Part shown: one piece after another, positions 1,849 through 19,827 of the stretch | How positions within the stretch are numbered: position 1 is the first letter of the stretch | Layout of the letters: each line of letters starts with the position of its first letter | DNA from: Anaerolineaceae bacterium | Lineage (GTDB): Bacteria > Chloroflexota > Anaerolineae > Anaerolineales > Anaerolineaceae | DNA: 22,128 nucleotides | Direction: 5' to 3' | NCBI GenBank assembly: GCA_003158355.1 | Contig: PMIV01000088.1 | Coordinates: 1-22,128, forward strand | Notes under the pieces: model-generated | Database searches by the model: none | The model's input: only the letters and a program-made list of their open reading frames with translations | Told to the model about the DNA's origin: nothing | Made by a program: the position numbers and the translations under genes

Positions 1849-2913
1849 TTGAAATCAATATTAATTACCGGTGGTTGTGGATTCATTGGCTCAAATTTTA
1901 TCCACTACATCATCGATCATAACCAAGACCTGCGTGTCACCAACCTGGATGCAGTCACCTACGCCGGTAATGAAGCTAACCTGGAAAATATCAAGACAAA
2001 TCCCAATTATCACTTTATTAAAGGCGATATTTGTGACCAGGAATTGGTCCGGAAAATATTTGTAGAGAACGATATCGATACGGTCGTTCACTTCGCCGCT
2101 GAAACCCATGTGGATCGGTCGATCCTCAACCCTCTTGAATTTTTACATACCAATGTTTATGGCACCGGAGTGCTATTAGAAGCTGCTCGTGAGCACTGGC
2201 AGAAGAACCCAACGGGCGAGCATCGATTCCATCATATTTCCACTGATGAAGTATTCGGATCATTGATGCCCAATGATTCAGCGTTTAACGAATCCACGCC
2301 ATACTCGCCGAACTCTCCATATTCTGCCAGCAAGGCAGCCAGCGATCATTTGGTCCGCTCCTATTTCCATACCTATCAACTGCCCATAACCATCAGCAAT
2401 TGCACCAATAATTATGGACCTTACCAATTCCCCGAAAAGTTAATCCCGCTTTTCATTTCAAATGCCATTCATGGACTGCCTTTGCCTGTTTATGGCGATG
2501 GCAAACAAATTCGGGATTGGGTATACGTCGAAGATCATTGCGAAGGGATCTATCAAATCCTCAGCAAAGGTAAGGTAGGTGAGACGTATGGAATTGGCGG
2601 CAATAATCAGCCCACCAATCTGGAGATCATTTTAGAGATAACCTCCTTATTAGATGAGATATTGCCGCAGTCTCCACATAAACCTCATGCTCAATTGATT
2701 CAATACGTCAAAGACCGCCCAGGTCACGACCGCAGATATGCAATGAACATCTCCAAGATCAACCGAGAATTAGGATGGACACCCAAAGAATCACTTAATT
2801 CGGGTTTGCGTAAAACGGTTGAATGGTACATTCACAATGCAAATTGGGTGGAAAACATCAACAAAAACAAAGAATTTAACCACTTTTTACAGACAAATTA
2901 CTCGAATCGATGA
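1849..2913 (+). CDS. rfbB: dTDP-glucose 4,6-dehydratase
   Basis: Extended short-chain dehydrogenase/reductase that converts dTDP-glucose to dTDP-4-keto-6-deoxyglucose in the cytoplasm with a tightly bound NAD cofactor. The 354 residues match the usual family length. Visible motifs are the NAD-binding TGGCGFIG at residues 7-14, HFAAETHVDRS at 81-91, the family-specific STDEVFG at 131-137 whose Asp and Glu act in dehydration, the catalytic Tyr158-xxx-Lys162 in YSASK, NNYGPYQFPEKLIP at 187-200 and RDWVYVEDH at 222-230. The start is TTG at 1849. This puts the NAD motif at the normal distance from the N-terminus, and GAGGA ends 4 bases upstream; no ATG fits. The gene is 8 bases ahead of rfbA. Its product feeds rhamnose or amino-deoxysugar branches; the wecE and wecD homologues downstream favour the latter here. 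Confidence 0.96.
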   Translation: MKSILITGGCGFIGSNFIHYIIDHNQDLRVTNLDAVTYAGNEANLENIKTNPNYHFIKGDICDQELVRKIFVENDIDTVVHFAAETHVDRSILNPLEFLHTNVYGTGVLLEAAREHWQKNPTGEHRFHHISTDEVFGSLMPNDSAFNESTPYSPNSPYSASKAASDHLVRSYFHTYQLPITISNCTNNYGPYQFPEKLIPLFISNAIHGLPLPVYGDGKQIRDWVYVEDHCEGIYQILSKGKVGETYGIGGNNQPTNLEIILEITSLLDEILPQSPHKPHAQLIQYVKDRPGHDRRYAMNISKINRELGWTPKESLNSGLRKTVEWYIHNANWVENINKNKEFNHFLQTNYSNR

Positions 2914-2921
2914 GGTGATAA

Positions 2922-3788
2922 ATGAAGGGAATTATTCTTGCCGGTGGAAGCGGAACCCGACTTTACCCATTAACCCTGAGCGTCAGCAAACAACTCCTGC
3001 CCGTTTACGACAAACCCATGATCTATTATCCCCTGTCGACTTTGATGTTAGCGGGGATTAAAGAAATCCTCATCATCAGCAACCCCGAACATATCCAGGC
3101 GTATAAAAATTTGCTGGGTGACGGGTCTCAATGGGGCATGCGATTTGAATATGCGGTCCAACCCAAGCCGCGTGGTCTGGCGGATGCTTTTATCGTGGGA
3201 GAAAATTTTATTAATAATGAAGCAAGCGCCCTCATCCTTGGAGATAACATTTTTTACGGCAGTGGTTTAGTTACCAAAGTACAAGAAGCTGCTGAAATAA
3301 AGAACGGGGCTTTGATATTCGCCTATCCGGTGAAAGACCCAAACCGATACGGTATCGTTGAACTGGACAAAGAACGACGGCCCATCAGCTTAGAAGAAAA
3401 ACCGATTATCCCCCGTTCAAATTTTGCCATTCCCGGCCTATATTTTTATGACGGACGGGTATCCAAGTTTGCCAAGAAGATCAAGCCATCCCCACGCGGA
3501 GAGATTGAGATCACAGACCTGAACCGGATTTATATGGAAGAAGGCACGCTGCAGGTGAGTATTTTTGGCCGCGGCATGGCCTGGTTGGATGCCGGTACTA
3601 CCGAATCGCTGCTGCAGGCGGCTAATTTTATCCAAGTCGTCCAGGAACGGCAGGGATTCAAGATCTCCTGCCCCGAAGAGATTGCCTTCCGTATGAAGTT
3701 CATCGATCGCGCCCAGTTGACGCGTATTAAAGAAAGCACCACGAATCCAGATTATAAAAAATATTTTGAAGAATTAATAAAGGAATAA
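2922..3788 (+). CDS. rfbA: glucose-1-phosphate thymidylyltransferase
   Basis: Nucleotidyltransferase that makes dTDP-glucose from dTTP and glucose-1-phosphate, the first committed step toward dTDP-deoxysugars. At 288 residues it has the normal RmlA length. The signature loop LAGGSGTRL is at residues 6-14, the catalytic-site Lys23 lies in SKQLLPVYDKPMIYYPL, QPKPRGLADAF is at 80-90, and the metal-binding ILGDNIFYG region at 105-113 carries the conserved Asp. A good GAGGTGAT ribosome-binding site overlaps the rfbB stop codon, so rfbB and rfbA are one operon. The order rfbB-rfbA without rmlC or rmlD nearby means the rhamnose pathway is not complete in this window. After this gene comes an AT-rich spacer and then membrane glycosyltransferase genes. 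Confidence 0.96.
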   Translation: MKGIILAGGSGTRLYPLTLSVSKQLLPVYDKPMIYYPLSTLMLAGIKEILIISNPEHIQAYKNLLGDGSQWGMRFEYAVQPKPRGLADAFIVGENFINNEASALILGDNIFYGSGLVTKVQEAAEIKNGALIFAYPVKDPNRYGIVELDKERRPISLEEKPIIPRSNFAIPGLYFYDGRVSKFAKKIKPSPRGEIEITDLNRIYMEEGTLQVSIFGRGMAWLDAGTTESLLQAANFIQVVQERQGFKISCPEEIAFRMKFIDRAQLTRIKESTTNPDYKKYFEELIKE

Positions 3789-3886
3789 CTTATTAAATTT
3801 GAAGCCAAGGTCACTAATTCACAAAGAAATTTTGTTTGACCATGAAAATTTTAGAATTTTATCTTGAAATCTTTTAGGTGTCATTT

Positions 3887-5104
3887 ATGAGTAAAAAAGA
3901 AATAAATATTTTTTATGCTCTATTAAGTTGTTTGGTAATCGCCTTATTTGGATTAGTAATGTTTCACGAACTCAAGCACGGAGATTTTCCTGCACATATT
4001 GCATTTGCTAAATATTTTTCTGAAAATGGATATTTATATAAAATACCACATACGCTTTTCGCCAGAGGCGTTACGATCATTCGTGCTTTGTTGCCTGCAA
4101 ACATTCTGGTCTGGATCAGCCCATATGTAAAACAAGTATATGACCTTAAATCTTTCGAGATTTCCACCCTTATTTTAATGGTACTAACCTATCTTTTTTT
4201 GGCTTACATCATTGCCAATCGAATTCTGAATGAATGGAAAAACAGCACAAACAAAGCACTTTTCTGGGTTGGATTCATTACTTTTACAATATTACTCGCC
4301 GCACCAATTTTCCTGTTTACTTTTCCGAATAGAATGTTCGTGGGCTACGTAAACGGTAATCGTTACGATAGTCCAACCTATATTTTGTCAAAACCATTTG
4401 TTCTGCTCTTTTTTCTGGGAATTGTTGATAATTTTGAGGCAAAATGGAATTGGAAACAGGCAATTCTTATTGCGATAGCCTTAGTCTGTGCAACTTTAGC
4501 AAAGCCAAGTTTTACAATCACTATTCTTCCTGCTATTGGTATTCTGGTACTTTTTTCGATCAAAAGATTACGTAAAATCAATTGGGGATTCCTAATTTTC
4601 GCAATCGGTCTTCCCTCAATTATTGTGCTATTCGGGCAATATATCATCAATTATTCCGGGAATCGCGGCGATAGAATATTGATCGCTCCATTCAAAGAAA
4701 TATTGTTTCATGTACCCAATTTATATTTAGTCTTCTTCTTAATTATCATGTCGATTGCTTTCCCAATTGTGATCACAACCTTTTATTGGAAAGAAATCAA
4801 ACATGATCTAGAATTTCGTTTAGCTTGGATAAACTATTTTATCGGACAAATGTACGGATTGATTTTTTGCGAGGAAATTAATTTTGGGGTACTAAACTTT
4901 TGGAATAGTGCAATGATCGCAAATTTTGTACTATTCTTTACAACGGTAAAATTTTATGGCAGGGATATTTATGAAAATATTGCTACTAGAAAAAAATTAT
5001 CTAGCAAACAAATTGTTGCTAGTGGCGTCCTTGTTCTTCATTTGTTATGCGGAATCATTTATTTTATTGCCACATTGCTTAATAAGGGAGTCAATGTGGG
5101 GTAA
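3887..5104 (+). CDS. polytopic membrane protein, probable GT-C glycosyltransferase
   Basis: A 405-residue, very hydrophobic protein with roughly ten predicted transmembrane helices. Helix 1 is followed by the polar loop HGDFPAH (residues 31-37), with an Asp in the first outside loop as in GT-C glycosyltransferases, which use a polyprenyl-phosphate sugar on the outer face of the membrane. A second polar patch near residue 150 (NGNRYDSPTYILSKPF) also resembles GT-C proteins of surface glycan clusters. ATG at 3887 is preferred because AGGTG ends 6 bases upstream; an in-frame GTG lies at 3878. It is followed after 18 bases by another membrane glycosyltransferase gene. The gene is visibly more AT-rich than rfbBA. 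Substrate and acceptor cannot be read from sequence; a polymerase or other membrane role is possible. Confidence 0.72.
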   Translation: MSKKEINIFYALLSCLVIALFGLVMFHELKHGDFPAHIAFAKYFSENGYLYKIPHTLFARGVTIIRALLPANILVWISPYVKQVYDLKSFEISTLILMVLTYLFLAYIIANRILNEWKNSTNKALFWVGFITFTILLAAPIFLFTFPNRMFVGYVNGNRYDSPTYILSKPFVLLFFLGIVDNFEAKWNWKQAILIAIALVCATLAKPSFTITILPAIGILVLFSIKRLRKINWGFLIFAIGLPSIIVLFGQYIINYSGNRGDRILIAPFKEILFHVPNLYLVFFLIIMSIAFPIVITTFYWKEIKHDLEFRLAWINYFIGQMYGLIFCEEINFGVLNFWNSAMIANFVLFFTTVKFYGRDIYENIATRKKLSSKQIVASGVLVLHLLCGIIYFIATLLNKGVNVG

Positions 5105-5122
5105 TATTTTATGGGAGAGTTA

Positions 5123-6325
5123 ATGAAGAGCAGAAATTTACTGAATTTTCAAAAATTTGCGATCATTACGACTTTAATTATTCTGGCAATTGTGTTAAGG
5201 ATCTTTTTTTTATACATTCCCAGTCCAGATTTAACAGAATTCAATTCCGTTTGGTATGACACATTTATTAAAATTGGAAGAATTGATGCATTTAAAACAG
5301 TTTTTTATAATTATTCCCCCGCATATTTATATTTGATCGATTTTACAACACTATTCAGATTCATTCCAAAAATTATTGCATTAAAGTTGATCCCAATTTT
5401 TTTTGATGGGTTTGCTGCCTTTGCAGTTTATAAAATCATAAGCCTGAAATACTCCGGGGGTAATTATCCCTGGGTTGGATTTTTCGCAATACTTTTCGCA
5501 CCTACAGTTTTTATTGAAAGCAGTATGTGGGGGCAAGTTGACATTATTTTTACCTCTTTTCTATTGTGGTCTTTTTTTTATCTGCTAAAAGATAAACCGT
5601 TCTTATCGATCCTGGCATTCTCAATTGCACTTTGTTTTAAGTTTCAAGCGATATTTTTTGCACCCATCTTTATTATTTTATTCTTTAGAAAAAAGATGCC
5701 CTTCTGGTCCTTTTTTTGTATACCGATCGTATTTTTCATATCAGTGATTCCAGCATGGCTTTCTGGTGGTCCACTGGGTGATATTCTATCCATATATTTT
5801 TCTCAAGCAAATACCTATCATTCACTCTCGTTGCGGGCACCCAATCTCTATCTGTTTTTACCATCAGATCCGAATTTTGAACTTAAAAAATGGCTGGGCA
5901 TTGGATTCACTGGAATTTTAGTCTTACTCTACTTGCTTTTCCGAATTTATAAGAAGAAAGAGCTGTCTTATATAGCATTGAGTTTTGATGCAGCTTTACT
6001 CACTACCTTTATTGTTTTCTTTTTACCCAGCATGCATGAACGGTATTTTTTCACTGCAAGTGTTTTCCTCATTGTTTTAGCTTTGTTCTATCCAAAAATG
6101 ATTTGGGCCAGTATACTAATTCAAGCATCTTCATTGATTTCCTTTATCCCATATTTTACCGGTTGGTCAGACATATTCGCCCAGATTGGTGCAGTATTAA
6201 ATATTTTCTTGTTGATCGGTTTGGTTTTCTTTTATCGAGACTATTTAATTAATGGGATTAACGAGAACGATAGTCCAAAAATAATATTTCCTCACTCCCC
6301 CTCAATAGAATGCGGCGAGAAATGA
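5123..6325 (+). CDS. Gpi18-like (COG5542-type) GT-C mannosyltransferase-family membrane protein
   Basis: A 400-residue polytopic membrane protein. Hallmarks of the bacterial Gpi18-like GT-C family are MWGQVD at residues 135-140, SLRAPNLYLFLP at 236-247 and SMHERYFF at 303-310. Acidic residues in the first outside loop (Asp36, and Asp46 in WYDTF) are candidates for catalysis. Family members transfer sugars, often mannose, from polyprenyl-phosphate donors at the outer face of the membrane; the exact sugar here is unknown. Two in-frame ATGs exist, at 5111 and 5123. The second is preferred because GGGAGA ends 4 bases upstream, but 5111 cannot be excluded. The gene overlaps the next one in an ATGA arrangement, so translation is probably coupled. 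It is strongly AT-rich: 17 G+C in the 60 bases at 5161-5220. Confidence 0.8.
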   Translation: MKSRNLLNFQKFAIITTLIILAIVLRIFFLYIPSPDLTEFNSVWYDTFIKIGRIDAFKTVFYNYSPAYLYLIDFTTLFRFIPKIIALKLIPIFFDGFAAFAVYKIISLKYSGGNYPWVGFFAILFAPTVFIESSMWGQVDIIFTSFLLWSFFYLLKDKPFLSILAFSIALCFKFQAIFFAPIFIILFFRKKMPFWSFFCIPIVFFISVIPAWLSGGPLGDILSIYFSQANTYHSLSLRAPNLYLFLPSDPNFELKKWLGIGFTGILVLLYLLFRIYKKKELSYIALSFDAALLTTFIVFFLPSMHERYFFTASVFLIVLALFYPKMIWASILIQASSLISFIPYFTGWSDIFAQIGAVLNIFLLIGLVFFYRDYLINGINENDSPKIIFPHSPSIECGEK

Positions 6326-8364
6326 TCCAGAAACTGAAACGATTTGTTTTTTCATATGCGAATACTCCAATAATATTAGCCTTATTAGTCCTTGCCAGCT
6401 ATGCAATCACCATCCGGTTCTTAGGTTTCTTCATGGATGATTGGTATCTGATCTGGTATAAACACATTTTTGGTGCGTTACAATTTCCGGCTTATTTTTC
6501 TGTAGATCGACCGCTAATGGGATATTTTTATATCCTGGCCAATTTCCTATTGGCCAATTCTGAATCTCCGCTTGTTTGGCAAATTTTCGGTTTATTCACC
6601 CGTTGGTTAACTGTCTTTGCCTTATGGGGCTTTCTAAATACTCTTTGGCCAAACGCTAAAAAACAAAATACACTGGTCGCGATCCTGGCTGCGGTTTTCC
6701 CTGGTTTTACTCAGCAATGGATCGCAGTAATTTACAGCTTCTTTTTTACCTGCCTCGCCGGGTTCTTTTTCTCGCTCACCTTAATGCTGAAGGCTGTTCG
6801 AAACCCAAAACGCTTCTGGATCTATACCGTTCTTTCATTGATCATTGGCGTTTATTCTTATGCGGCGGCCGAATTTTATTTTGGATTGGAATTGATTCGT
6901 CCGGTAGTTTTATGGATTGAGTACTCCAGGGATAATCAAGATGTACGCCAGAAAATACAAAAAACTTTAAAGACCTGGGTACCTTACTTCATTGCCTTTT
7001 TGGCATTTGCTATTTGGCGTGGGTTTTTCTATGTTTCTGCTCATCATGAAGTTAAAATTACCCAAGAAATCTTACAGTCACCGCTTGGCTTTGTAATTAA
7101 ATCTCTACAAATAATTTACCAGGCTTGTATTGATGCGGTTTTTAATTCCTGGGTGAATCCCCTCAACCTGAGCAATTACCCTACAAAAGGAAAAGTCCCT
7201 TTCCTTATTTTAGGGATCGTGATTCTTGTTTTCTCGGGTTTGGTCATTTGGCTCCGCTCCATTACAAAAAATAATTTTCAGGAAACAGAAGCACAAAATA
7301 GATCCTGGAATAAAGAAGCTTTTTCCCTCGGATTGATCTCTTTAGTAGTTGCGGTTTTGCCATTTTTGGCAGCAGATCTACCAATTGGAATTGATTATCC
7401 TTATGATCGTTTCCTTTTAGCTTACATGTTTGGTAGCTGCTTGTTTTTGGTTACCCTTTTAGACAAACGGAAGATCGGGCTTTATTTCATTGCATTTCTG
7501 CTTGCAATATCCACAGGGTATCAAATCTCAAAGAGTGTTTATTACAAAAATGAGTATCAGGAACAAAGTGATTTTTTTTGGCAGTTAAGTTGGCGAGCTC
7601 CTCAAATTCAAAAAAACACAGTATTACTATCCGAAGATTTGTCTTTTTCTGATTTGTTTTCAAGTACTTCTTTGACAGCTCCATTAAATATGATCTATGC
7701 AAGCAATCTCGATTCTCACAATATACCTTATTTTTTATTGTTGTATTCTCAGCTACAAGATGTTGTGCCGGAATTTGAACCTAACTTACCCATTAATTAT
7801 GATTTGCGTTCGTTTGTTTTTCAAGGCAATACTTCATCCATAATGGTCTTTAAGAAGACATCAGATAGTTGTCTACGATTATTATCCAATGACGATTCGC
7901 CAGCCGAATTTTTACATAGTCCAAGGTATAATTTCTGGGAAGAAGTAATTCCTTTATCAAATCTAAATCAGGTGATTACCCAACCTGAAAATGCGGTTAC
8001 CTTGCCGGAAAAATACTTTGGGGTTGAAAATACGAACCAGTGGTGCTTTTATTTTGAAAAGGCAGATCTTGCCCGCCAATTAAAAAAATGGGATTTAGTC
8101 ATTACCCTTTATGACCAGGCAAGTTCTAAGGGCTTCGAACCCACAAATGTTAGTGAGTGGTTACCCTTGATTGATGCTTATGCAAATACAAACCAACTAT
8201 TTAAAGCCTCAGATCTTACTTTAAGCCTTAAAATTAATGATGATAACAATAAAGGGATAGTTTGTAATGCTTGGGAAAAAATAAAAGGACAGATCACAGA
8301 CACTCAGATGCAAGGACAAGCTCAAAACGTGTTGTCCCAACTCCAATGTGAAGCAATAAAATAA
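6322..8364 (+). CDS. large GT-C membrane glycosyltransferase with TPR-like C-terminal tail
   Basis: A 680-residue protein. About the first 400 residues are polytopic membrane with the GT-C signature MDDWYLIW near residues 38-45 (tandem Asp39-Asp40 in the first outside loop) and DRPLMGYFY near 62-70. From about residue 410 a soluble domain follows, and the last 115 residues contain helix-turn-helix pairs of TPR type (LARQLKKWDLVITLYDQA, then EWLPLIDAYANTNQLFKASD). The soluble part probably lies outside the membrane, but topology was not computed. ATG at 6322 overlaps the preceding stop as ATGA and is preferred over ATG at 6310, which lacks a ribosome-binding site; the GGCGAG ahead of 6322 is itself weak. 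This is the third consecutive GT-C gene, and a terminator follows it. Donor and acceptor are unknown. Confidence 0.78.
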   Translation: MIQKLKRFVFSYANTPIILALLVLASYAITIRFLGFFMDDWYLIWYKHIFGALQFPAYFSVDRPLMGYFYILANFLLANSESPLVWQIFGLFTRWLTVFALWGFLNTLWPNAKKQNTLVAILAAVFPGFTQQWIAVIYSFFFTCLAGFFFSLTLMLKAVRNPKRFWIYTVLSLIIGVYSYAAAEFYFGLELIRPVVLWIEYSRDNQDVRQKIQKTLKTWVPYFIAFLAFAIWRGFFYVSAHHEVKITQEILQSPLGFVIKSLQIIYQACIDAVFNSWVNPLNLSNYPTKGKVPFLILGIVILVFSGLVIWLRSITKNNFQETEAQNRSWNKEAFSLGLISLVVAVLPFLAADLPIGIDYPYDRFLLAYMFGSCLFLVTLLDKRKIGLYFIAFLLAISTGYQISKSVYYKNEYQEQSDFFWQLSWRAPQIQKNTVLLSEDLSFSDLFSSTSLTAPLNMIYASNLDSHNIPYFLLLYSQLQDVVPEFEPNLPINYDLRSFVFQGNTSSIMVFKKTSDSCLRLLSNDDSPAEFLHSPRYNFWEEVIPLSNLNQVITQPENAVTLPEKYFGVENTNQWCFYFEKADLARQLKKWDLVITLYDQASSKGFEPTNVSEWLPLIDAYANTNQLFKASDLTLSLKINDDNNKGIVCNAWEKIKGQITDTQMQGQAQNVLSQLQCEAIK

Positions 8365-8412
8365 TTAATTGATTCACAAAGTACTTTCCTATCAAGCCGG
8401 GTGATGAACAAA

Positions 8413-8438
8413 TAACCATCTTATGGTTAGTTTTTTTT
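8413..8438 (+). terminator. rho-independent terminator after the GT-C block
   Basis: A perfect 7-base-pair stem (TAACCAT at 8413-8419 and ATGGTTA at 8423-8429) with a 3-base loop is followed by G and eight T residues. It ends the transcription unit containing the three GT-C genes. It separates them from the GT2/wecD/wecE genes, which must then have their own promoter; I could not identify one confidently in 8439-8535. Confidence 0.75.
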
Positions 8439-8535
8439 CTTTCTGTATTTTGATAGTTCTTTTCATTTATTCTCTCAATAATCTTTTTTAAGGTTTTTCT
8501 TTAGAATAATAATGATCGAAAAAAAAGGGAATATC

Positions 8536-9468
8536 ATGACTAGATCGTCAATTTCAATAGTAATTCCTGTCTATTGCGCAGAGCAGACCATCACTCCGTT
8601 GGTCGATCAGTTATCTAAATGCCTGCCAACTTTGGCAGATGAATATGAAGTGCTGCTGGTAAATGACGGCAGCAAAGATAATTCCTGGCAGAAGATCGAA
8701 GAAATTGTAAAAACTTATCCGAAAGTCTCCGGCATCAACCTGATGCGCAATTACGGTCAGCACAATGCCCTCCTTTGCGGGATCCGTGCTGCCAAATGCG
8801 ACATTGTTGTCACAATGGACGACGATCTGCAGCATCCGCCTGAGACGATCCATATCCTCCTTGAGAAACTTGCTGAAGGATATGATGTTGTCTACGGCTC
8901 GCCTATCACAGAAAACCACGGCCTGTTTCGGGATGCTGCCTCTTTGATCACAAAGATGGTGCTGCAGAGTGTCATGAATGTGGATACTGCCCGTTATGTC
9001 AGTGCCTACAGAGCTTTTAGAACTGACTTGAGAAACGCGTTTGAGAACTATCAGGGCTCCAACGTCTCTATTGATGTCTTGCTCTCTTGGGGAACTTCCC
9101 GCTTTACCTATGTAAAAGTGGAACATCACCCACGAGCGGCCGGAGAGTCAAATTATACGCTGCGCAAACTGATCTCTCACGCCATGAATATGATCACCGG
9201 TTTCAGCACGATCCCGCTGCGTATTTCCAGTGGAATCGGTTTCTTGTTTACCTTGTTCGGCATTATCGTTCTTTTCTACACGCTGATCCATTATCTGATC
9301 GTGGGGGGTGTGGTACCCGGTTTTACTTTCACAGCTTCGTTGATCGCGATTTTTTCCGGCGCACAGTTATTCGCGCTGGGTATTATGGGTGAATATCTGG
9401 CCAGGATGCACTTCAGGTTAATGGATAAGCCTAGCTATGCCGTCAAAACAAAGGTTGAGCATGATTAA
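8536..9468 (+). CDS. GT2 polyprenyl-phosphate glycosyltransferase (GtrB/ArnC/DPM1-like)
   Basis: A 310-residue GT-A fold glycosyltransferase. Starting from the ATG at 8536, SIVIPVY is at residues 7-13, VNDGS at 42-46, and the metal-binding MDDDLQHPPE at 94-103. Two C-terminal transmembrane helices (about residues 220-285) match the GtrB/ArnC pattern of enzymes that move a sugar from a nucleotide donor to undecaprenyl phosphate on the inner face of the membrane. The start at 8536 has AAAAAAGGGA ending 5 bases upstream; an in-frame ATG at 8512 would add eight residues and has no better site. The stop overlaps the start of the acetyltransferase gene, so these are coupled. Context suggests a dTDP-amino-deoxysugar as donor. 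That is inference; UDP-glucose or GDP-mannose are equally compatible with the family. Confidence 0.9.
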   Translation: MTRSSISIVIPVYCAEQTITPLVDQLSKCLPTLADEYEVLLVNDGSKDNSWQKIEEIVKTYPKVSGINLMRNYGQHNALLCGIRAAKCDIVVTMDDDLQHPPETIHILLEKLAEGYDVVYGSPITENHGLFRDAASLITKMVLQSVMNVDTARYVSAYRAFRTDLRNAFENYQGSNVSIDVLLSWGTSRFTYVKVEHHPRAAGESNYTLRKLISHAMNMITGFSTIPLRISSGIGFLFTLFGIIVLFYTLIHYLIVGGVVPGFTFTASLIAIFSGAQLFALGIMGEYLARMHFRLMDKPSYAVKTKVEHD

Positions 9469-10207
9469 TGGCAGTTCATCCGATCCCGCCCGCTTTCTGG
9501 ATTGGGACAGCACTTTCTTTGAGAAACGTATTGCCTGGGTAAACAGCAATATACTTTCTCCTGACCGTATCGAAAGCATCAATACCTGGTCTCAGCAGAA
9601 CTCAATCGACTGTCTCTATTTTCTCGCCGCTTCGGATGATGATCAAACTGTGACCTGCGCAGAAAATGACGGTTATCACCTGGTGGATTTGCGCATCACT
9701 CTGGCCGTAAAACTTTCTGAACAAAATAAATCGAATCCGCCCGAAAGTTCTATTCGGTTTGCTGCCGAAAAAGATATCGATGACTTGCGTAGTATTGCCG
9801 GCATCAACCACACAAATTCGCGGTTCTTCACCGATCATCATTTTGACCGCGAGAAATGCCGTCAACTTTATGAAATTTGGATAGAAAAGTGCGTGCGCGC
9901 TGAAAATGGTCGGGTCTTTGTCTGGGACCATCAAGGCAAAGCGGTAGCATATGTTACTGCGGAACTGAACTCAGATCAAACCGGTTCCATCGAACTTGTT
10001 GGCGTTGCTCCGGAATTCCAGAGTAAAGGCATTGGAAAAAAACTTGTTTCAAGTGCACTGCTATTCTTTTATAACAATCTAGCAGTCTCAGCAAATACCG
10101 TAACGCAAGGCCGCAACATTCATGCCTTAAAGTTGTACCAAAAAAGCGGTTTCGCGATTCAATCTATCGAACTCTGGTATCACAAATGGTTTGAAAATTC
10201 TCATTAA
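9461..10207 (+). CDS. wecD: WecD-like dTDP-4-amino-4,6-dideoxyhexose N-acetyltransferase (GNAT)
   Basis: A 248-residue protein with the architecture of E. coli WecD (RffC), the acetyltransferase that makes dTDP-Fuc4NAc. An N-terminal domain opens with LDWDSTFF (residues 13-20), the typical WecD start. A GNAT domain covers residues 97-245, with the acetyl-CoA loop GVAPEFQSKGIG at 181-192. WecD-type features SRFFTDHHFD (120-129), LYEIWIEKCV and a YQKSGF C-terminal motif are present. The ATG at 9461 is chosen because AAAGG ends 6 bases upstream and it overlaps the GT2 stop by 8 bases; an in-frame ATG at 9437 would add eight residues. The wecE homologue follows after 11 bases. The pairing supports the assignment strongly; the acyl donor could differ (formyl or other acyl) without changing the fold. 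Confidence 0.85.
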   Translation: MINGSSSDPARFLDWDSTFFEKRIAWVNSNILSPDRIESINTWSQQNSIDCLYFLAASDDDQTVTCAENDGYHLVDLRITLAVKLSEQNKSNPPESSIRFAAEKDIDDLRSIAGINHTNSRFFTDHHFDREKCRQLYEIWIEKCVRAENGRVFVWDHQGKAVAYVTAELNSDQTGSIELVGVAPEFQSKGIGKKLVSSALLFFYNNLAVSANTVTQGRNIHALKLYQKSGFAIQSIELWYHKWFENSH

Positions 10208-10218
10208 AGGACGTAAAC

Positions 10219-11361
10219 GTGAATCAAATAAAGATTCCCTTTAATCTCCCCGCGATGGTTCCCAATGAACTCGAAAACATTCAAGATGTGATCGTTAAAG
10301 GGCACTTAGCCGGTGACGGCGAATATACAAAAAAATGTAATGCTCTGCTTGAACAAATCACTGGTGCACAAAAGGTGCTGATTACCACCAATTGTACCCA
10401 CGCCCTTGAAATGACCGCCATGCTACTGGATATTCATCCCGGTGATGAAGTGATCATTCCTTCTTTTACCTTTGTCTCAACGGTGAACGCGTTTGTATTG
10501 CGCGGCGCCAAGCCGGTCTTTGCCGATATCCGCCCCGATACACTCAATCTGGATGAGACAAAAATCGAAAAATTGATCACATCAAAAACTAAAGCAGTTG
10601 TTCCGGTTCACTATGCCGGAGTTGGCTGCGAGATGGACGCTATTCTCCCGATTGCCAAAAAACACAACCTCAAAGTGGTGGAAGATAACGCTCACGGTCT
10701 GTTTGGCAAATACAAAGGTCAGAACCTGGGTACATTTGGAGACCTGGCCACGCAGAGTTTTCACGAAACAAAGAACATTAGTTGCGGTGAAGGTGGGGCT
10801 ATACTCATCAATTCCGCGGAAATGAATGATCGCGCGGAGATCATCCGCGAAAAAGGCACCAATCGCAGTCGCTTCTTTAGAGGCCAGATCGATAAATATT
10901 CCTGGGTGGATATTGGCTCCAGCTACCTGCCTTCTGAAGTGCTGGCTGCCATCCTCTTCACCCAGCTCGAAGCCCGCGAAGCCATCCAGCAAAAACGCGG
11001 TCATATCTGGAATTCATATGCAAGCTCTCTGGTCGGTTGGGCTCAAAGACACGATGTGCGCTTTCCGATCATCCCGGATTATTGCCAACAGCCTTCCCAC
11101 ATGTTTTATTTGCTCATGCCCTCCCTTGAAATACGCACTCGTTTTATTCGTTTTATGAAATCCATGGGTGTTCTGTGTGTTTTTCATTATTTGCCGCTGC
11201 ATCTATCAGATATGGGTATCGGTTTCGGTAGTAAACCCGGCGACTGCCCGGTGACTGAAGATATCAGTGATCGGTTAGTCCGTTTGCCTTTGTTCTACAA
11301 CCTGGAACAAAAAGACCTGGATTACGTGATCGAACAGATCCTTAGTTTCAACGAATTCTGA
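10219..11361 (+). CDS. wecE: WecE-like dTDP-4-amino-4,6-dideoxygalactose transaminase
   Basis: PLP-dependent sugar aminotransferase of the DegT/DnrJ/EryC1 family, 380 residues. It closely follows E. coli WecE (RffA) from memory: PGDEVIIPSFTFVSTVNAF (residues 74-92), VPVHYAGVGCEMD (128-140), the cofactor-contacting VEDNAHG (154-160), SFHETKN with the Schiff-base Lys185, EIIREKGTNRSRFFRGQ, VFHYLPLH and a C-terminal RLPLFYNL. It would transfer an amino group from glutamate to C4 of dTDP-4-keto-6-deoxyglucose, giving dTDP-Fuc4N, the substrate for the adjacent acetyltransferase. One residue fewer than the E. coli enzyme appears after the lysine (NISCGEGG). Start is GTG at 10219 with AAAGGA overlapping the previous stop codon and a spacing of 7. 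It ends the operon and is convergent with uup. Confidence 0.93.
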   Translation: MNQIKIPFNLPAMVPNELENIQDVIVKGHLAGDGEYTKKCNALLEQITGAQKVLITTNCTHALEMTAMLLDIHPGDEVIIPSFTFVSTVNAFVLRGAKPVFADIRPDTLNLDETKIEKLITSKTKAVVPVHYAGVGCEMDAILPIAKKHNLKVVEDNAHGLFGKYKGQNLGTFGDLATQSFHETKNISCGEGGAILINSAEMNDRAEIIREKGTNRSRFFRGQIDKYSWVDIGSSYLPSEVLAAILFTQLEAREAIQQKRGHIWNSYASSLVGWAQRHDVRFPIIPDYCQQPSHMFYLLMPSLEIRTRFIRFMKSMGVLCVFHYLPLHLSDMGIGFGSKPGDCPVTEDISDRLVRLPLFYNLEQKDLDYVIEQILSFNEF

Positions 11362-16888: not shown

Positions 16889-19024
16889 TTAATTGCCATT
16901 GGCTGGCAGCACCAAATAAGAAATAAAATCGCGGCCAGGGATCGGTGATTGATGCAGGGTCGAATACCCATTTGGATATATTTGGTGGATCAATTGAATC
17001 GCATCGGCGTGATCTGATTTAATTATAAACATCTTTGCCCGCGTATCAGAGGTTGTATTAATGATGTCTTTAGGCCAAATGGCATAATCTTTAGTCGGGT
17101 ACCCTGCCACCATGGCTACCAGTCGGGTATCTACCCAATATGCCAAACCCACCACATAACAGTTATCTGGGGTACCCACCGATTCAATAAAGGCTTTGCA
17201 AACCTCACCCATTTCCTTCGTATTCCAGGTCGCATTTGCATAAGAATTATTGTACTGGTTGAATACCAGATCATAATTTTGGTTGGCAGAAATAAGAACG
17301 AGCCCTAAAGCCAGTGTCACCACCAGACCTTTGTTAAATAAGCCACGACATTTTTTCCACAAATTAACCAGTACGCTCTGAAAACCGATCGCAGCAATAA
17401 TGATTATCGGTACGACCGCTCCGCCTGCACGGCTGAGCGATGGATTTTCGATCGGAAATGCCAGCGCCAGAATGGAAGGCAGCATTAAAACTGGAATTGC
17501 CAGTATCAGGAATAAATCTTGCCAGTTACGTTGCTTCCTCCAACGCAGAAAAACAACCACTAGTCCAATAAAATAAAGGGCTGCGGTCACCACATCCAGC
17601 GCCGGACGGTCGGTCACCGAGATTACCCAGGTGCTGCCATCTTTCCAGAATGGCATGGTGAGCGCATTCCAGGTATTCGATAAGAAGACCAAAATCACAT
17701 CTTTTGCTAGGGGTACCTCTGCCGAGGTCATCCGTGTAATGGTGCGATAACCAAAAGTTTCAGGGTATTGAATGGCAAAATGGAGCAGTGGAAACGCCAG
17801 AACAATGGCAAATAAAGTCATCACTCCCAGGGCAAGCCATCCTTCTTTGCGTTTCTGGCTTACTTTTTGATGAATTAAATAGAGCAGTACACCAAGCACC
17901 ACCACAAAAGGCATAATGCGAAAAGCGGAATATCCCAACAGTCCCAGACCTAAAAAGATGCCAGCCAGGATAAAATCATTTCGGTTGGCACGTCTGAATC
18001 CGCGGATCATGTAATAAAGCACTGGAGCAACAAAGACCGGGCACAACACCAGACGCAGGCCAACCCTCGCAATGATATTTGTCCAGGAAGCAAAGCCCAT
18101 AAACAACATGGCTATCAGACCTGTCCAGCGGTTGCCAAGTTCCTTGCCCAGTTTGTAGACAAAGAACAGCCCCACCAGAAAAGCCAGCGCCATGCCCAAC
18201 TTAAGGGTGGTAAAGTTGAACCCCGCGCCAAACCATTTGATGAGTGCAGCAGACAGATAAAATTGAATGGGTTCCCGGCCGCCGTTGCGCGGGAAAAAAA
18301 GCGAATACTTACCGCTTAAAATATCATTGATATCCAGCAGTTTTTCGGCATGGTCGCTGGTCATCTCCAGCGGTACACTGGCAAGCTGGCTGAGATGAAA
18401 GAATGCTGCGACAGCAAAAACGGCGGTTACCAATAAATTCCAGACAGAAAAATGGATATTTAGGAAAGGTGCGCGAATATACGCCCATATCTTTTGCCAC
18501 CCCTGATACAGATCAATCTTCTTTTTGGGCTGCCAGAGGCTCCACACTGCTAAAATGATCGCTGCCAGCCAGAGAAACAAATTTATGGGGGTGAAAAGGT
18601 TGTTCTTCAGTTCATAAAAAGCCAGTAATGCTACCGGGATAAAAATATAAAATTGAATGCTGCGGACACCTGTCTCCATGACTGCCGAATCATTTGGATG
18701 CGGGTTCATAATGAACAATTCCTGTTTGTAGACGGCAAAAATAATCAGTCCTAGAGCAACAGCATATAGGAAAATTGCTGCAAATTTATTTGCCCGCGTT
18801 GGTTCTAAAAGGCTTTGGGCAACCAGGGCAGCAAAAAGCGCCAGCAGGGTTCGCCAGGGAATTTCTAAACGCGGCTTTACCCATTCTGTCTCCGATTCCG
18901 GCTCAGGAATGAGCGTATCCGATTCACCTTCCTGAAGTTCAGGTTTCAAATCGATTCCGGGTTTTCCCCAATTTCGAGGATTTATTTTTTCTTTAAAATA
19001 ATCAAGAACGCTGGGCTCTTCCAT
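16889..19024 (-). CDS. GT39/PMT-like membrane glycosyltransferase with acidic N-terminal extension
   Basis: A 711-residue protein. Residues 1-55 are soluble, proline- and glutamate-rich and likely cytoplasmic. Some twelve or more transmembrane segments follow, and the last 120 residues are a soluble domain. Four hydrophobic segments precede the part that aligns best with the GT39/ArnT superfamily. That part begins with LEMTSDHAEKLLDI (residues 219-232), whose Asp224 and His225 sit where the catalytic Asp of GT-C enzymes is found, followed by GGREPIQFYL (248-257). Such enzymes use polyprenyl-phosphate sugars at the outer membrane face to modify lipids or proteins. It begins 20 bases after the FkbM gene, with AAAGGG as ribosome-binding site, so the two form an operon. 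Donor and acceptor unknown. Confidence 0.8.
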   Translation of the reverse strand: MEEPSVLDYFKEKINPRNWGKPGIDLKPELQEGESDTLIPEPESETEWVKPRLEIPWRTLLALFAALVAQSLLEPTRANKFAAIFLYAVALGLIIFAVYKQELFIMNPHPNDSAVMETGVRSIQFYIFIPVALLAFYELKNNLFTPINLFLWLAAIILAVWSLWQPKKKIDLYQGWQKIWAYIRAPFLNIHFSVWNLLVTAVFAVAAFFHLSQLASVPLEMTSDHAEKLLDINDILSGKYSLFFPRNGGREPIQFYLSAALIKWFGAGFNFTTLKLGMALAFLVGLFFVYKLGKELGNRWTGLIAMLFMGFASWTNIIARVGLRLVLCPVFVAPVLYYMIRGFRRANRNDFILAGIFLGLGLLGYSAFRIMPFVVVLGVLLYLIHQKVSQKRKEGWLALGVMTLFAIVLAFPLLHFAIQYPETFGYRTITRMTSAEVPLAKDVILVFLSNTWNALTMPFWKDGSTWVISVTDRPALDVVTAALYFIGLVVVFLRWRKQRNWQDLFLILAIPVLMLPSILALAFPIENPSLSRAGGAVVPIIIIAAIGFQSVLVNLWKKCRGLFNKGLVVTLALGLVLISANQNYDLVFNQYNNSYANATWNTKEMGEVCKAFIESVGTPDNCYVVGLAYWVDTRLVAMVAGYPTKDYAIWPKDIINTTSDTRAKMFIIKSDHADAIQLIHQIYPNGYSTLHQSPIPGRDFISYLVLPANGN

Positions 19025-19044: not shown

Positions 19045-19827
19045 TTATCTTTCCGCAAACAGATAAGCCAAGTCGTCATGCACCGGATTCAGGGTTAGGC
19101 GGGTCTGATACCCATTCTTCTCCAGAAATTCGATCATTTCCTGGCGTGCATGCGGAGTGATGAGGTCGTGTACTTCCATGCAAATTCGCGAGATCTTTTG
19201 TAAAAATTTTGGGGAACAATTGAACAGAATATCATACTCTGCCCCCTCGCAGTCGATCTTCAAATAATCACACGAATCGATCTTCATCTCGGAAAAAAAG
19301 CTTTGCAAACTGCTTACTCTAACCGGCATACTGCCTGCCGCTGCAGTGGAAGCGGCGGTTGAATGCTGAACCGCTTGCCCGGTCACCAGTTGCAGACCCG
19401 ATTTCCCATCCTGGCCGCCTATGGCTGTTTCAACCACCACCACATTGTTCACCTGATTTAGCTGGACGTTTTGTTTTAGTAATTTGACAGATTGGGGAAA
19501 AGGTTCAATTGCAAAAACTCTACCGCCTGTTAGCTGACGACCTGCCCAAACCGCATAATCTCCCAATGCTGCCCCAATATCCACCACTAGCCAATCCGGC
19601 TGCAGCGGCACAGAGACTGCCTCATATGTCCGGTCAAGGATGGTTTCTTTTAAGATCCAGGCATCCATTAAAGTAGAAACATAGAATCGTTCGTTATCCT
19701 TCAAACGGATTTCGATGGGCTCATCACTGGGTTGGCGAGTGGCCAGTTTTATTAGCGCAGAAATATTCTTTACGCTTTTAAACAATGTAAATATTGAATT
19801 GCAATAATAAGTGATCCGATTTGTCAT
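19045..19827 (-). CDS. FkbM-family SAM-dependent methyltransferase
   Basis: A 260-residue methyltransferase. After an N-terminal region of about 75 residues comes the SAM-binding motif VVDIGAALGDYA at 81-92, VFAIEPFP at 104-111 whose Glu binds SAM, and the FkbM signature DYLKIDCEGAEYDIL at 187-201. FkbM proteins usually O-methylate sugars, polyketides or lipids; in surface-polysaccharide loci they methylate glycan residues. The short stretch near residues 146-157 (STAASTAAAGS) is a low-complexity Ala/Ser loop that breaks the usual strand order and may be a local expansion. The ATG at 19827 lacks a clear Shine-Dalgarno sequence. It is first in an operon with the GT39-like glycosyltransferase, so a methylated glycan is a reasonable inference. 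Confidence 0.87.
   Translation of the reverse strand: MTNRITYYCNSIFTLFKSVKNISALIKLATRQPSDEPIEIRLKDNERFYVSTLMDAWILKETILDRTYEAVSVPLQPDWLVVDIGAALGDYAVWAGRQLTGGRVFAIEPFPQSVKLLKQNVQLNQVNNVVVVETAIGGQDGKSGLQLVTGQAVQHSTAASTAAAGSMPVRVSSLQSFFSEMKIDSCDYLKIDCEGAEYDILFNCSPKFLQKISRICMEVHDLITPHARQEMIEFLEKNGYQTRLTLNPVHDDLAYLFAER

Follow-up and report, generated by a model that had tools for sequence, protein, structure and literature searches.

An ArnC/GtrB-type glycosyltransferase gene beside a predicted dTDP-Fuc4N(Ac) pathway in Chloroflexota

The stretch analysed here, called the window, covers bases 1 to 22,128 of contig PMIV01000088.1 (29,437 bases), from the draft genome (2.71 Mb, 84% complete) of an Anaerolineaceae bacterium of the phylum Chloroflexota. 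Its genes include rfbB, rfbA, wecE and a wecD-like gene, predicted to make the dTDP-linked form of 4-acetamido-4,6-dideoxygalactose (Fuc4NAc; Fuc4N without the acetyl group), together with a glycosyltransferase gene (GT2) and three genes for membrane proteins (M1 to M3). An earlier note, written from the DNA letters alone, had proposed the four-gene set, and all four genes lie where it placed them, on the plus strand within 1849-11361. Its attribution of the DNA to a probable member of the Chloroflexota agrees with the organism names among the listed homologues of M3 (Chloroflexi bacterium, 58%; Anaerolinea sp., 45%; Bellilinea sp., 38%). The genes are, in order:

1849-2913, plus strand: rfbB, dTDP-glucose 4,6-dehydratase (TIGR01181, 499.6 bits, cut-off 365.1)
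2922-3788, plus strand: rfbA, glucose-1-phosphate thymidylyltransferase (TIGR01207, 455.4 bits, cut-off 360.65)
3878-5104, plus strand: M1, membrane protein with a type C glycosyltransferase (GT-C) fold in its predicted model, without a Pfam or NCBIfam match
5111-6325, plus strand: M2, protein with multiple transmembrane segments and possible GT-C enzyme, from its position and the look of its sequence
6310-8364, plus strand: M3, membrane protein whose predicted model has a GT-C fold, with a helical-repeat part at its C-terminus
8512-9468, plus strand: GT2, ArnC/GtrB-type polyprenyl-phosphate glycosyltransferase (PF00535, matches to solved ArnC and GtrB, co-occurrence with wecE)
9437-10207, plus strand: wecD-like GNAT gene, predicted dTDP-Fuc4N N-acyltransferase (PRK10975, 100.4 bits, cut-off 219)
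10219-11361, plus strand: wecE, predicted Fuc4N-forming dTDP-4-keto-6-deoxyglucose 4-aminotransferase (PRK11706, solved WecE 4piw, tree)

The reading frames of M2 and M3 overlap, as do those of GT2 and wecD, the wecD frame sharing the end of GT2. Counts in a promoter and terminator scan were near chance (31 versus 27.2 and 9 versus 9.8) and carry no weight in the reading.

RfbB, RfbA and WecE are members of their families by the curated NCBIfam cut-offs. In profile searches of the kind that the earlier note had suggested for all four proteins, these three scored above their cut-offs and the WecD-like protein scored below. WecE scored 563.6 bits on PRK11706, an equivalog model (cut-off 375), and 529.0 bits on TIGR02379 (cut-off 434.85), a subfamily model and not an equivalog; a search of the PDB with the same protein gave 438.3 bits for WecE (4piw) versus 160.8 bits for QdtB. 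The FHETKN block that had been singled out in WecE is identical in E. coli, and the other two blocks are near-identical, with one residue off in each (EKGTNRSRFFRGQ versus EKGTNRSQFFRGQ; HYAGVGCEMD versus HYAGVACEMD). Among solved structures, the WecD-like protein comes closest to E. coli WecD (2fs5, E 1.8e-7), and the C-terminal tyrosine, the catalytic acid of WecD, is kept (KLYQKSG aligned with E. coli KRYIQSG). The "LDWDS" stretch reported earlier for WecD did not hold up, since E. coli K-12 has LTWEN there and the common part is only L-x-W-[DE]. As had been noted, no open reading frame (ORF) of the window was identified as rmlC or rmlD. The 84% complete genome itself has no rmlC match, and its top hit for rmlD, located on a different contig, falls short of the cut-off (182.2 versus 224.05 bits), so the usual route from dTDP-4-keto-6-deoxyglucose to rhamnose is not seen in the draft. 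The case for a dTDP-Fuc4N(Ac) pathway in this Chloroflexota genome is strong. Because the protein assigned to N-acetylation scores under both WecD cut-offs, however, the acyl group is unproven and acetyl only predicted; acetyl and the configuration of the sugar are both inferred.

To place the aminotransferase, we constructed a phylogenetic tree of 45 rows, comprising E. coli WecE, E. coli O7 VioA (the annotated vioA of IAI39), E. coli ArnB, the window protein and 41 others, mostly from Chloroflexota; further aminotransferases of known function, such as QdtB, FdtB and Per, are absent from it, those in the PDB being compared by search scores only. The window WecE falls with E. coli WecE in a 34-row clade (support 100/100) apart from VioA, the outcome that, as regards VioA, the earlier note needed from such a phylogeny. 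Its identity is 54.7% with E. coli WecE, 29.7% with VioA and about 31% with ArnB. A VioA-type product is disfavoured by the low identity and by the position of VioA, like ArnB, outside the WecE clade, although the VioA branch is long.

GT2 is an ArnC/GtrB-type protein, similar over nearly its full length. Residues 13-313 align with solved ArnC (9hwj, 154.8 bits), covering the GT-A domain and the C-terminal membrane part, residues 13-311 align with GtrB (5ekp, 147.6 bits), and the alignment to ArnC and GtrB includes the acidic stretch DDDLQHPPE / DADLQNPPE. Its predicted activity is the transfer of Fuc4NAc onto polyprenyl phosphate.

The distribution of GT2 in a sample of 400 genomes of the window's phylum, taken to be Chloroflexota on the strength of the names among the M3 homologues, points to a link with WecE. 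WecE is above cut-off in 32 genomes, and the lower scores drop from 423 bits (G330, just below the cut-off) to 249. Orthologues of GT2 (E 1e-60 or better) are present in 31 genomes at 336-712 bits, plus 230.7 bits for a partial match in G360; the next match below them among the 32 WecE genomes scores 160 bits. The two occur together in 25 genomes versus 2.48 expected (Fisher p 6.6e-28) and, by hand-counted genera, in 17 of 225 versus 1.87 expected (p 4.4e-19); both p values assume independence between genomes or genera and are therefore overstated, 20 of the 32 WecE genomes belonging to one order, that of the window, with no phylogenetic correction past genus level. The spacing between GT2 and wecE is 44-3,727 bp in 20 genomes, and a 21st close pair (G355, locus L092) has the order M3, GT2, GNAT and wecE, with only the first part of wecE present before the contig stops. 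All 21 close pairs are on the same strand. They include G360, a 4-kb contig in which the GT2 match covers residues 104-315 only; L081 (G330), below the WecE cut-off, is outside the 32, and L078 (G396), without a retained wecE ORF, is outside the flank survey. In three genomes beyond the 21 (G055, G120 and G224), the same strand carries an ArnC-like GT2 from a different clade, which scores 213-217 bits against E. coli ArnC and lies at a distance of 3.7-6.2 kb from wecE. Four related loci from a scan of named genomes had no ArnC-like ORF of at least 80 bits in the fetched flanks. Close homologues of both rfbB and rfbA lie near wecE in 11 of the 32 genomes, within the fetched neighbourhoods (the window, L059, L060, L062, L065, L066, L067, L068, L072, L073 and L076).

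The WecE tree shows a similar pattern. The clade splits into a 6-row side with E. coli WecE, Bacteroides (L019), Ramlibacter (L018) and three Chloroflexota (L051, L052 and L053), and a 28-row side with the window, in which 27 rows form one group and a Planctomycetes sequence (L017) stands outside it. In 24 of these 27 rows the fetched region has a same-strand gene for an ArnC-like GT2, the misses being L058, L020 and L071, and L077 being counted as positive through a second contig piece, L092. None was found in the five fetched rows of the E. coli side (only 3.7 kb for L052), in L017 or in the annotated E. coli wec region. WecF occurs on the E. coli side in E. coli itself, with a WecF-like ORF (52 bits) in the Ramlibacter metagenome-assembled genome. 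The two subclades seem to match two modes of sugar use. In the Ramlibacter (Comamonadaceae) genome, the WecF-like, WecD-like and WecE ORFs lie together (L018, 8219-11152), which may represent ECA-like use of Fuc4NAc (that is, as in the enterobacterial common antigen, ECA) outside Enterobacteria.

A modification gene lies between GT2 and wecE in 20 of the 21 close clusters, L049 having none, and its type varies. It is of the WecD type in three (the window, L056 and L064) and another GNAT in five (L062, L070, L074, L075 and L092). A formyltransferase takes the place of WecD in two (L057, 10375-11325; L069, 5712-6374, along with WbqC), which suggests a formylated Fuc4N there. WbqC (PF08889) is found in ten (L054, L055, L059, L060, L061, L063, L065, L066, L068 and L076), nine of them along with an ORF recognised as a methyltransferase. 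The WbqC match of L076 is inside a 493-aa ORF with no separate methyltransferase call. Six of the ten also have a protein of a 311-aa type that matches no Pfam family. These types were assigned by Pfam for L054, L057, L062, L069, L070 and L075, by alignment for the WecD type and by phmmer elsewhere. The place of WbqC between GT2 and wecE suggests that it acts on a 4-amino sugar. At two further loci (L088 and L089), a cluster of GT2, WbqC, methyltransferase and 311-aa protein has no wecE, the wecE of these genomes (G224 and G337) being located elsewhere beside other genes.

This variety bears on the possibility that the amino sugar of the window is a different one, either because WecE gives dTDP-Qui4N or because the N-acyl group on Fuc4N is not acetyl. 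The formyltransferases, other GNATs and WbqC of other clusters are in keeping with such a product, as are the low scores of the WecD-like protein and the subfamily status of TIGR02379. However, the score of WecE on the PRK11706 equivalog, its identity to the E. coli enzyme and its separation from VioA argue against Qui4N, and E. coli WecD as best PDB match together with the retained tyrosine argues against another acyl group. We consider a different sugar fairly unlikely.

The membrane proteins encoded upstream provide candidates for a final transferase. The predicted models of M1 and M3 have GT-C folds (alignments of the window protein with 68 of 75 homologues for M1 and with 74 of 120 listed homologues, out of 275 found, for M3). 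Assignment of M2 to GT87 was rejected: its Pfam match is non-significant (E 9.3, 6.4 bits), and its alignment to the GT87 protein of L064 is at chance level (E 0.48). A GT-C-type gene lies immediately upstream of GT2 in several clusters, encoding PMT_2 in L057 and L070, GT87 in L064 and M3 in the window, L074 and L092. Homologues of M3 (E 1e-40 or better) are present in 32 of the 400 genomes, 31 of the same order or closer. Their co-occurrence was rejected as a sign that M3 is the specific partner of GT2, as the distribution follows taxonomy; only the adjacency of M3 and GT2 is used, because co-occurrence could reflect shared ancestry. M3 as the specific transferase is uncertain. In the distant genome G081, locus L064 (8873-13575, minus strand) has GT87, GT2, WecD-type and WecE genes followed by one for a small EamA protein, weakly ArnE/F-like (21.7 and 23.0 bits), and is a candidate complete three-component set.

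Fuc4NAc is known above all as a sugar of the ECA. The lack of a WecF-like gene, remarked on in the earlier note, extends to all 32 WecE-bearing Chloroflexota genomes, the window's own (84% complete) included, none of which matches PF07429 (E. coli control positive). The WecG family (PF03808) has no match in the 84% complete genome, with 7 of 14 controls positive, and WzxE and WzyE have no phmmer match in the fetched neighbourhoods. Membership of the ECA system was rejected on the findings for WecF and WecG. A true ECA pathway acquired from Enterobacteria would share the rfbB, rfbA, wecD-like and wecE set, as the window does. It is made highly improbable by these missing genes, by the separate subclade of the window WecE and by the GT2-GNAT-WecE core shared by three genomes of the window's family (L056, L074 and L092). 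The E. coli pathway (RffG-RffH-WecD(RffC)-WecE, K-12 b3788-b3791) has the same four activities, but the window cluster differs from it in having an ArnC/GtrB-type GT2 and GT-C proteins without WecF, WecG, WzxE or WzyE matches, and in a WecD-like protein under the WecD cut-off.

The earlier note went no further than saying that the sugar must be used differently. The layout of the operon suggests its likely use: an ArnC/GtrB-type gene overlaps wecD, and predicted GT-C enzymes precede it. RfbA would make dTDP-glucose and RfbB dTDP-4-keto-6-deoxyglucose, which WecE would aminate at C-4 to dTDP-Fuc4N, and the WecD-like GNAT would N-acylate this product, probably with acetyl. GT2 would then take the sugar off dTDP and load it onto polyprenyl (undecaprenyl) phosphate, in the way that ArnC and GtrB treat their own sugars. 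The lipid-linked sugar would be flipped across the membrane by a presumed flippase, and a GT-C enzyme of the operon (M3, perhaps M1 and M2) would pass it to a putative extracytoplasmic acceptor. This Arn/Gtr-like three-component route, which we regard as fairly probable, would stand in for WecF, the E. coli enzyme that attaches Fuc4NAc to the lipid intermediate of the ECA. It would account for the lack of WecF, for an ArnC/GtrB-like enzyme travelling with WecE and for GT-C genes in the operon. The wider proposal, an Arn-like system on dTDP-Fuc4N in part of the Chloroflexota with a conserved core of WecE, polyprenyl-phosphate transferase and GT-C enzyme and an exchanged modification enzyme, is evenly poised between right and wrong; on the same reading, exchange would give a family of polyprenyl-phosphate-linked Fuc4N derivatives decorating extracytoplasmic acceptors.

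Several observations weigh against the three-component route. GT2 is under the ArnC equivalog cut-off (PRK10714, 181.4 versus 529 bits) and for this reason was not filed as ArnC, and no E. coli ArnD or ArnT match was found by phmmer in the fetched neighbourhoods. The GtrA flippase family (PF04138) has no match in the window's own genome, other flippase types not having been searched for. The GT-C folds of M1 and M3 do not by themselves show a function; of the 32 M3 genomes, 16 have GT2 and 18 have WecE, and M3 also occurs without either. The WecD-like protein, significant yet under the PRK10975 cut-off, is also under that of TIGR02382 (83.5 versus 195.1 bits), and WecD above the PRK10975 cut-off is found in none of the 32 WecE-bearing genomes. 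In four of the 25 genomes with both genes, GT2 and wecE are apart (129 kb in G176, 2.8 Mb in G337, different contigs in G224 and G282).

Other observations of this kind favour a reading in which the cell does produce dTDP-Fuc4NAc, whereas GT2 and the GT-C proteins serve another sugar, as polyprenyl-phosphate-glucose or -mannose, and an unrecognised cytoplasmic glycosyltransferase encoded elsewhere in the genome adds Fuc4NAc to a polysaccharide. Seven of the 32 WecE genomes have no GT2 orthologue. GT2 occurs without WecE in six genomes, and in five of the six regions the next gene encodes an RfbB-like short-chain dehydrogenase/reductase, with scores of 40-93 bits against the RfbB of the window. 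The GT2 clade is therefore not restricted to this one sugar and can probably handle others. A second, more distant ArnC-like GT2 near wecE in eight of the ten WbqC clusters makes the sugar-accepting enzyme ambiguous there. Against this alternative stand the excess of genomes with both genes (25 versus 2.5 expected), the 21 close same-strand pairs, of which 20 enclose a modification gene, the GT2/wecD overlap in the window and the lack of a WecF match in all 32 genomes; we consider it unlikely. The five loci with GT2 beside the RfbB-like protein, in genomes without WecE above cut-off (L093, L094, L096, L097 and L098), may carry the same lipid-loading enzyme serving another sugar.

The Arn pathway to undecaprenyl-phosphate-linked Ara4FN likewise has a 4-aminotransferase, N-acylation (formyl in Arn) and a polyprenyl-phosphate GT2 encoded together (E. 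coli order arnB-arnC-arnA-arnD-arnT-arnE-arnF), and its final transferase is a GT-C enzyme, as the candidate of the window is predicted to be; the GT2 of the window matches ArnC over residues 13-313. In Arn, N-formylation comes before transfer to the lipid. The window differs in its predicted use of a dTDP-hexose rather than a UDP-pentose, in having no ArnD or ArnT match by phmmer in the fetched neighbourhoods and in the sub-cut-off score of its GT2. VioA and VioB, which make dTDP-Qui4NAc in E. coli O7 from the same dTDP-keto sugar as WecE and WecD, are also a C-4 aminotransferase and an N-acetyltransferase; VioA, however, is outside the WecE clade, and VioB has no match in the window. In excerpts of the description of three-component glycosylation (GtrA/GtrB/Gtr; PMC11127046), systems are defined for pentofuranoses (GT136), with Glc and Gal prototypes, and share with the window a polyprenyl-phosphate sugar synthase and a GT-C transferase. 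A GT-C protein beside the polyprenyl-phosphate synthase is seen in the model folds of M1 and M3 and as PMT_2 or GT87 in related clusters, and a flippase candidate in one related cluster, L064. Unlike the Glc, Gal and pentofuranose systems in these excerpts (PMC11127046), the window has a predicted amino-dideoxy sugar and an exchangeable modification gene.

A survey of 12,939 genomes reports, in the excerpts considered, Fuc4NAc only in Gammaproteobacteria, with the caution that sugars seemingly confined to few phyla may occur in others (PMC7725333). Here WecE is above cut-off in 32 of 400 Chloroflexota; a WecD below cut-off, as in the window, could have been missed by the approach given in those excerpts. 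In 21 of the 32 genomes, wecE lies close to a gene whose predicted role points to another use of the sugar, its loading onto polyprenyl monophosphate. Open-licence literature, covered as titles and starts of abstracts, held no description of a polyprenyl-monophosphate route for Fuc4NAc, nothing on Fuc4NAc together with GtrB, no link of wecE or Fuc4N to "Chloroflex" among the matches listed, and no paper with both WbqC and Fuc4N. Matches for Fuc4NAc, undecaprenyl phosphate and WecE concerned the ECA, E. coli, Salmonella and bacterial envelope screens, and that for undecaprenyl phosphate, N-acetylfucosamine, GT-C and ArnC concerned Listeria lipoteichoic acid. If the route is correct, an amino-dideoxyhexose joins the sugars handled by three-component systems and an orphan ArnC/GtrB-like clade gains a testable substrate; it would also suggest that WbqC acts on a 4-amino sugar and provide a way into the study of Chloroflexota surface glycans.

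The gene at 2-1321 of the window (minus strand), which points away from the sugar genes, encodes a CpaF/TadA-like secretion ATPase, judged by the look of the sequence only; Tad pili are a purely speculative acceptor. Farther along the window, on the minus strand, a protein with multiple transmembrane segments and a PMT_2 match (16889-19024) lies beside an FkbM-family methyltransferase (19045-19827), possibly forming a second surface-glycan module.

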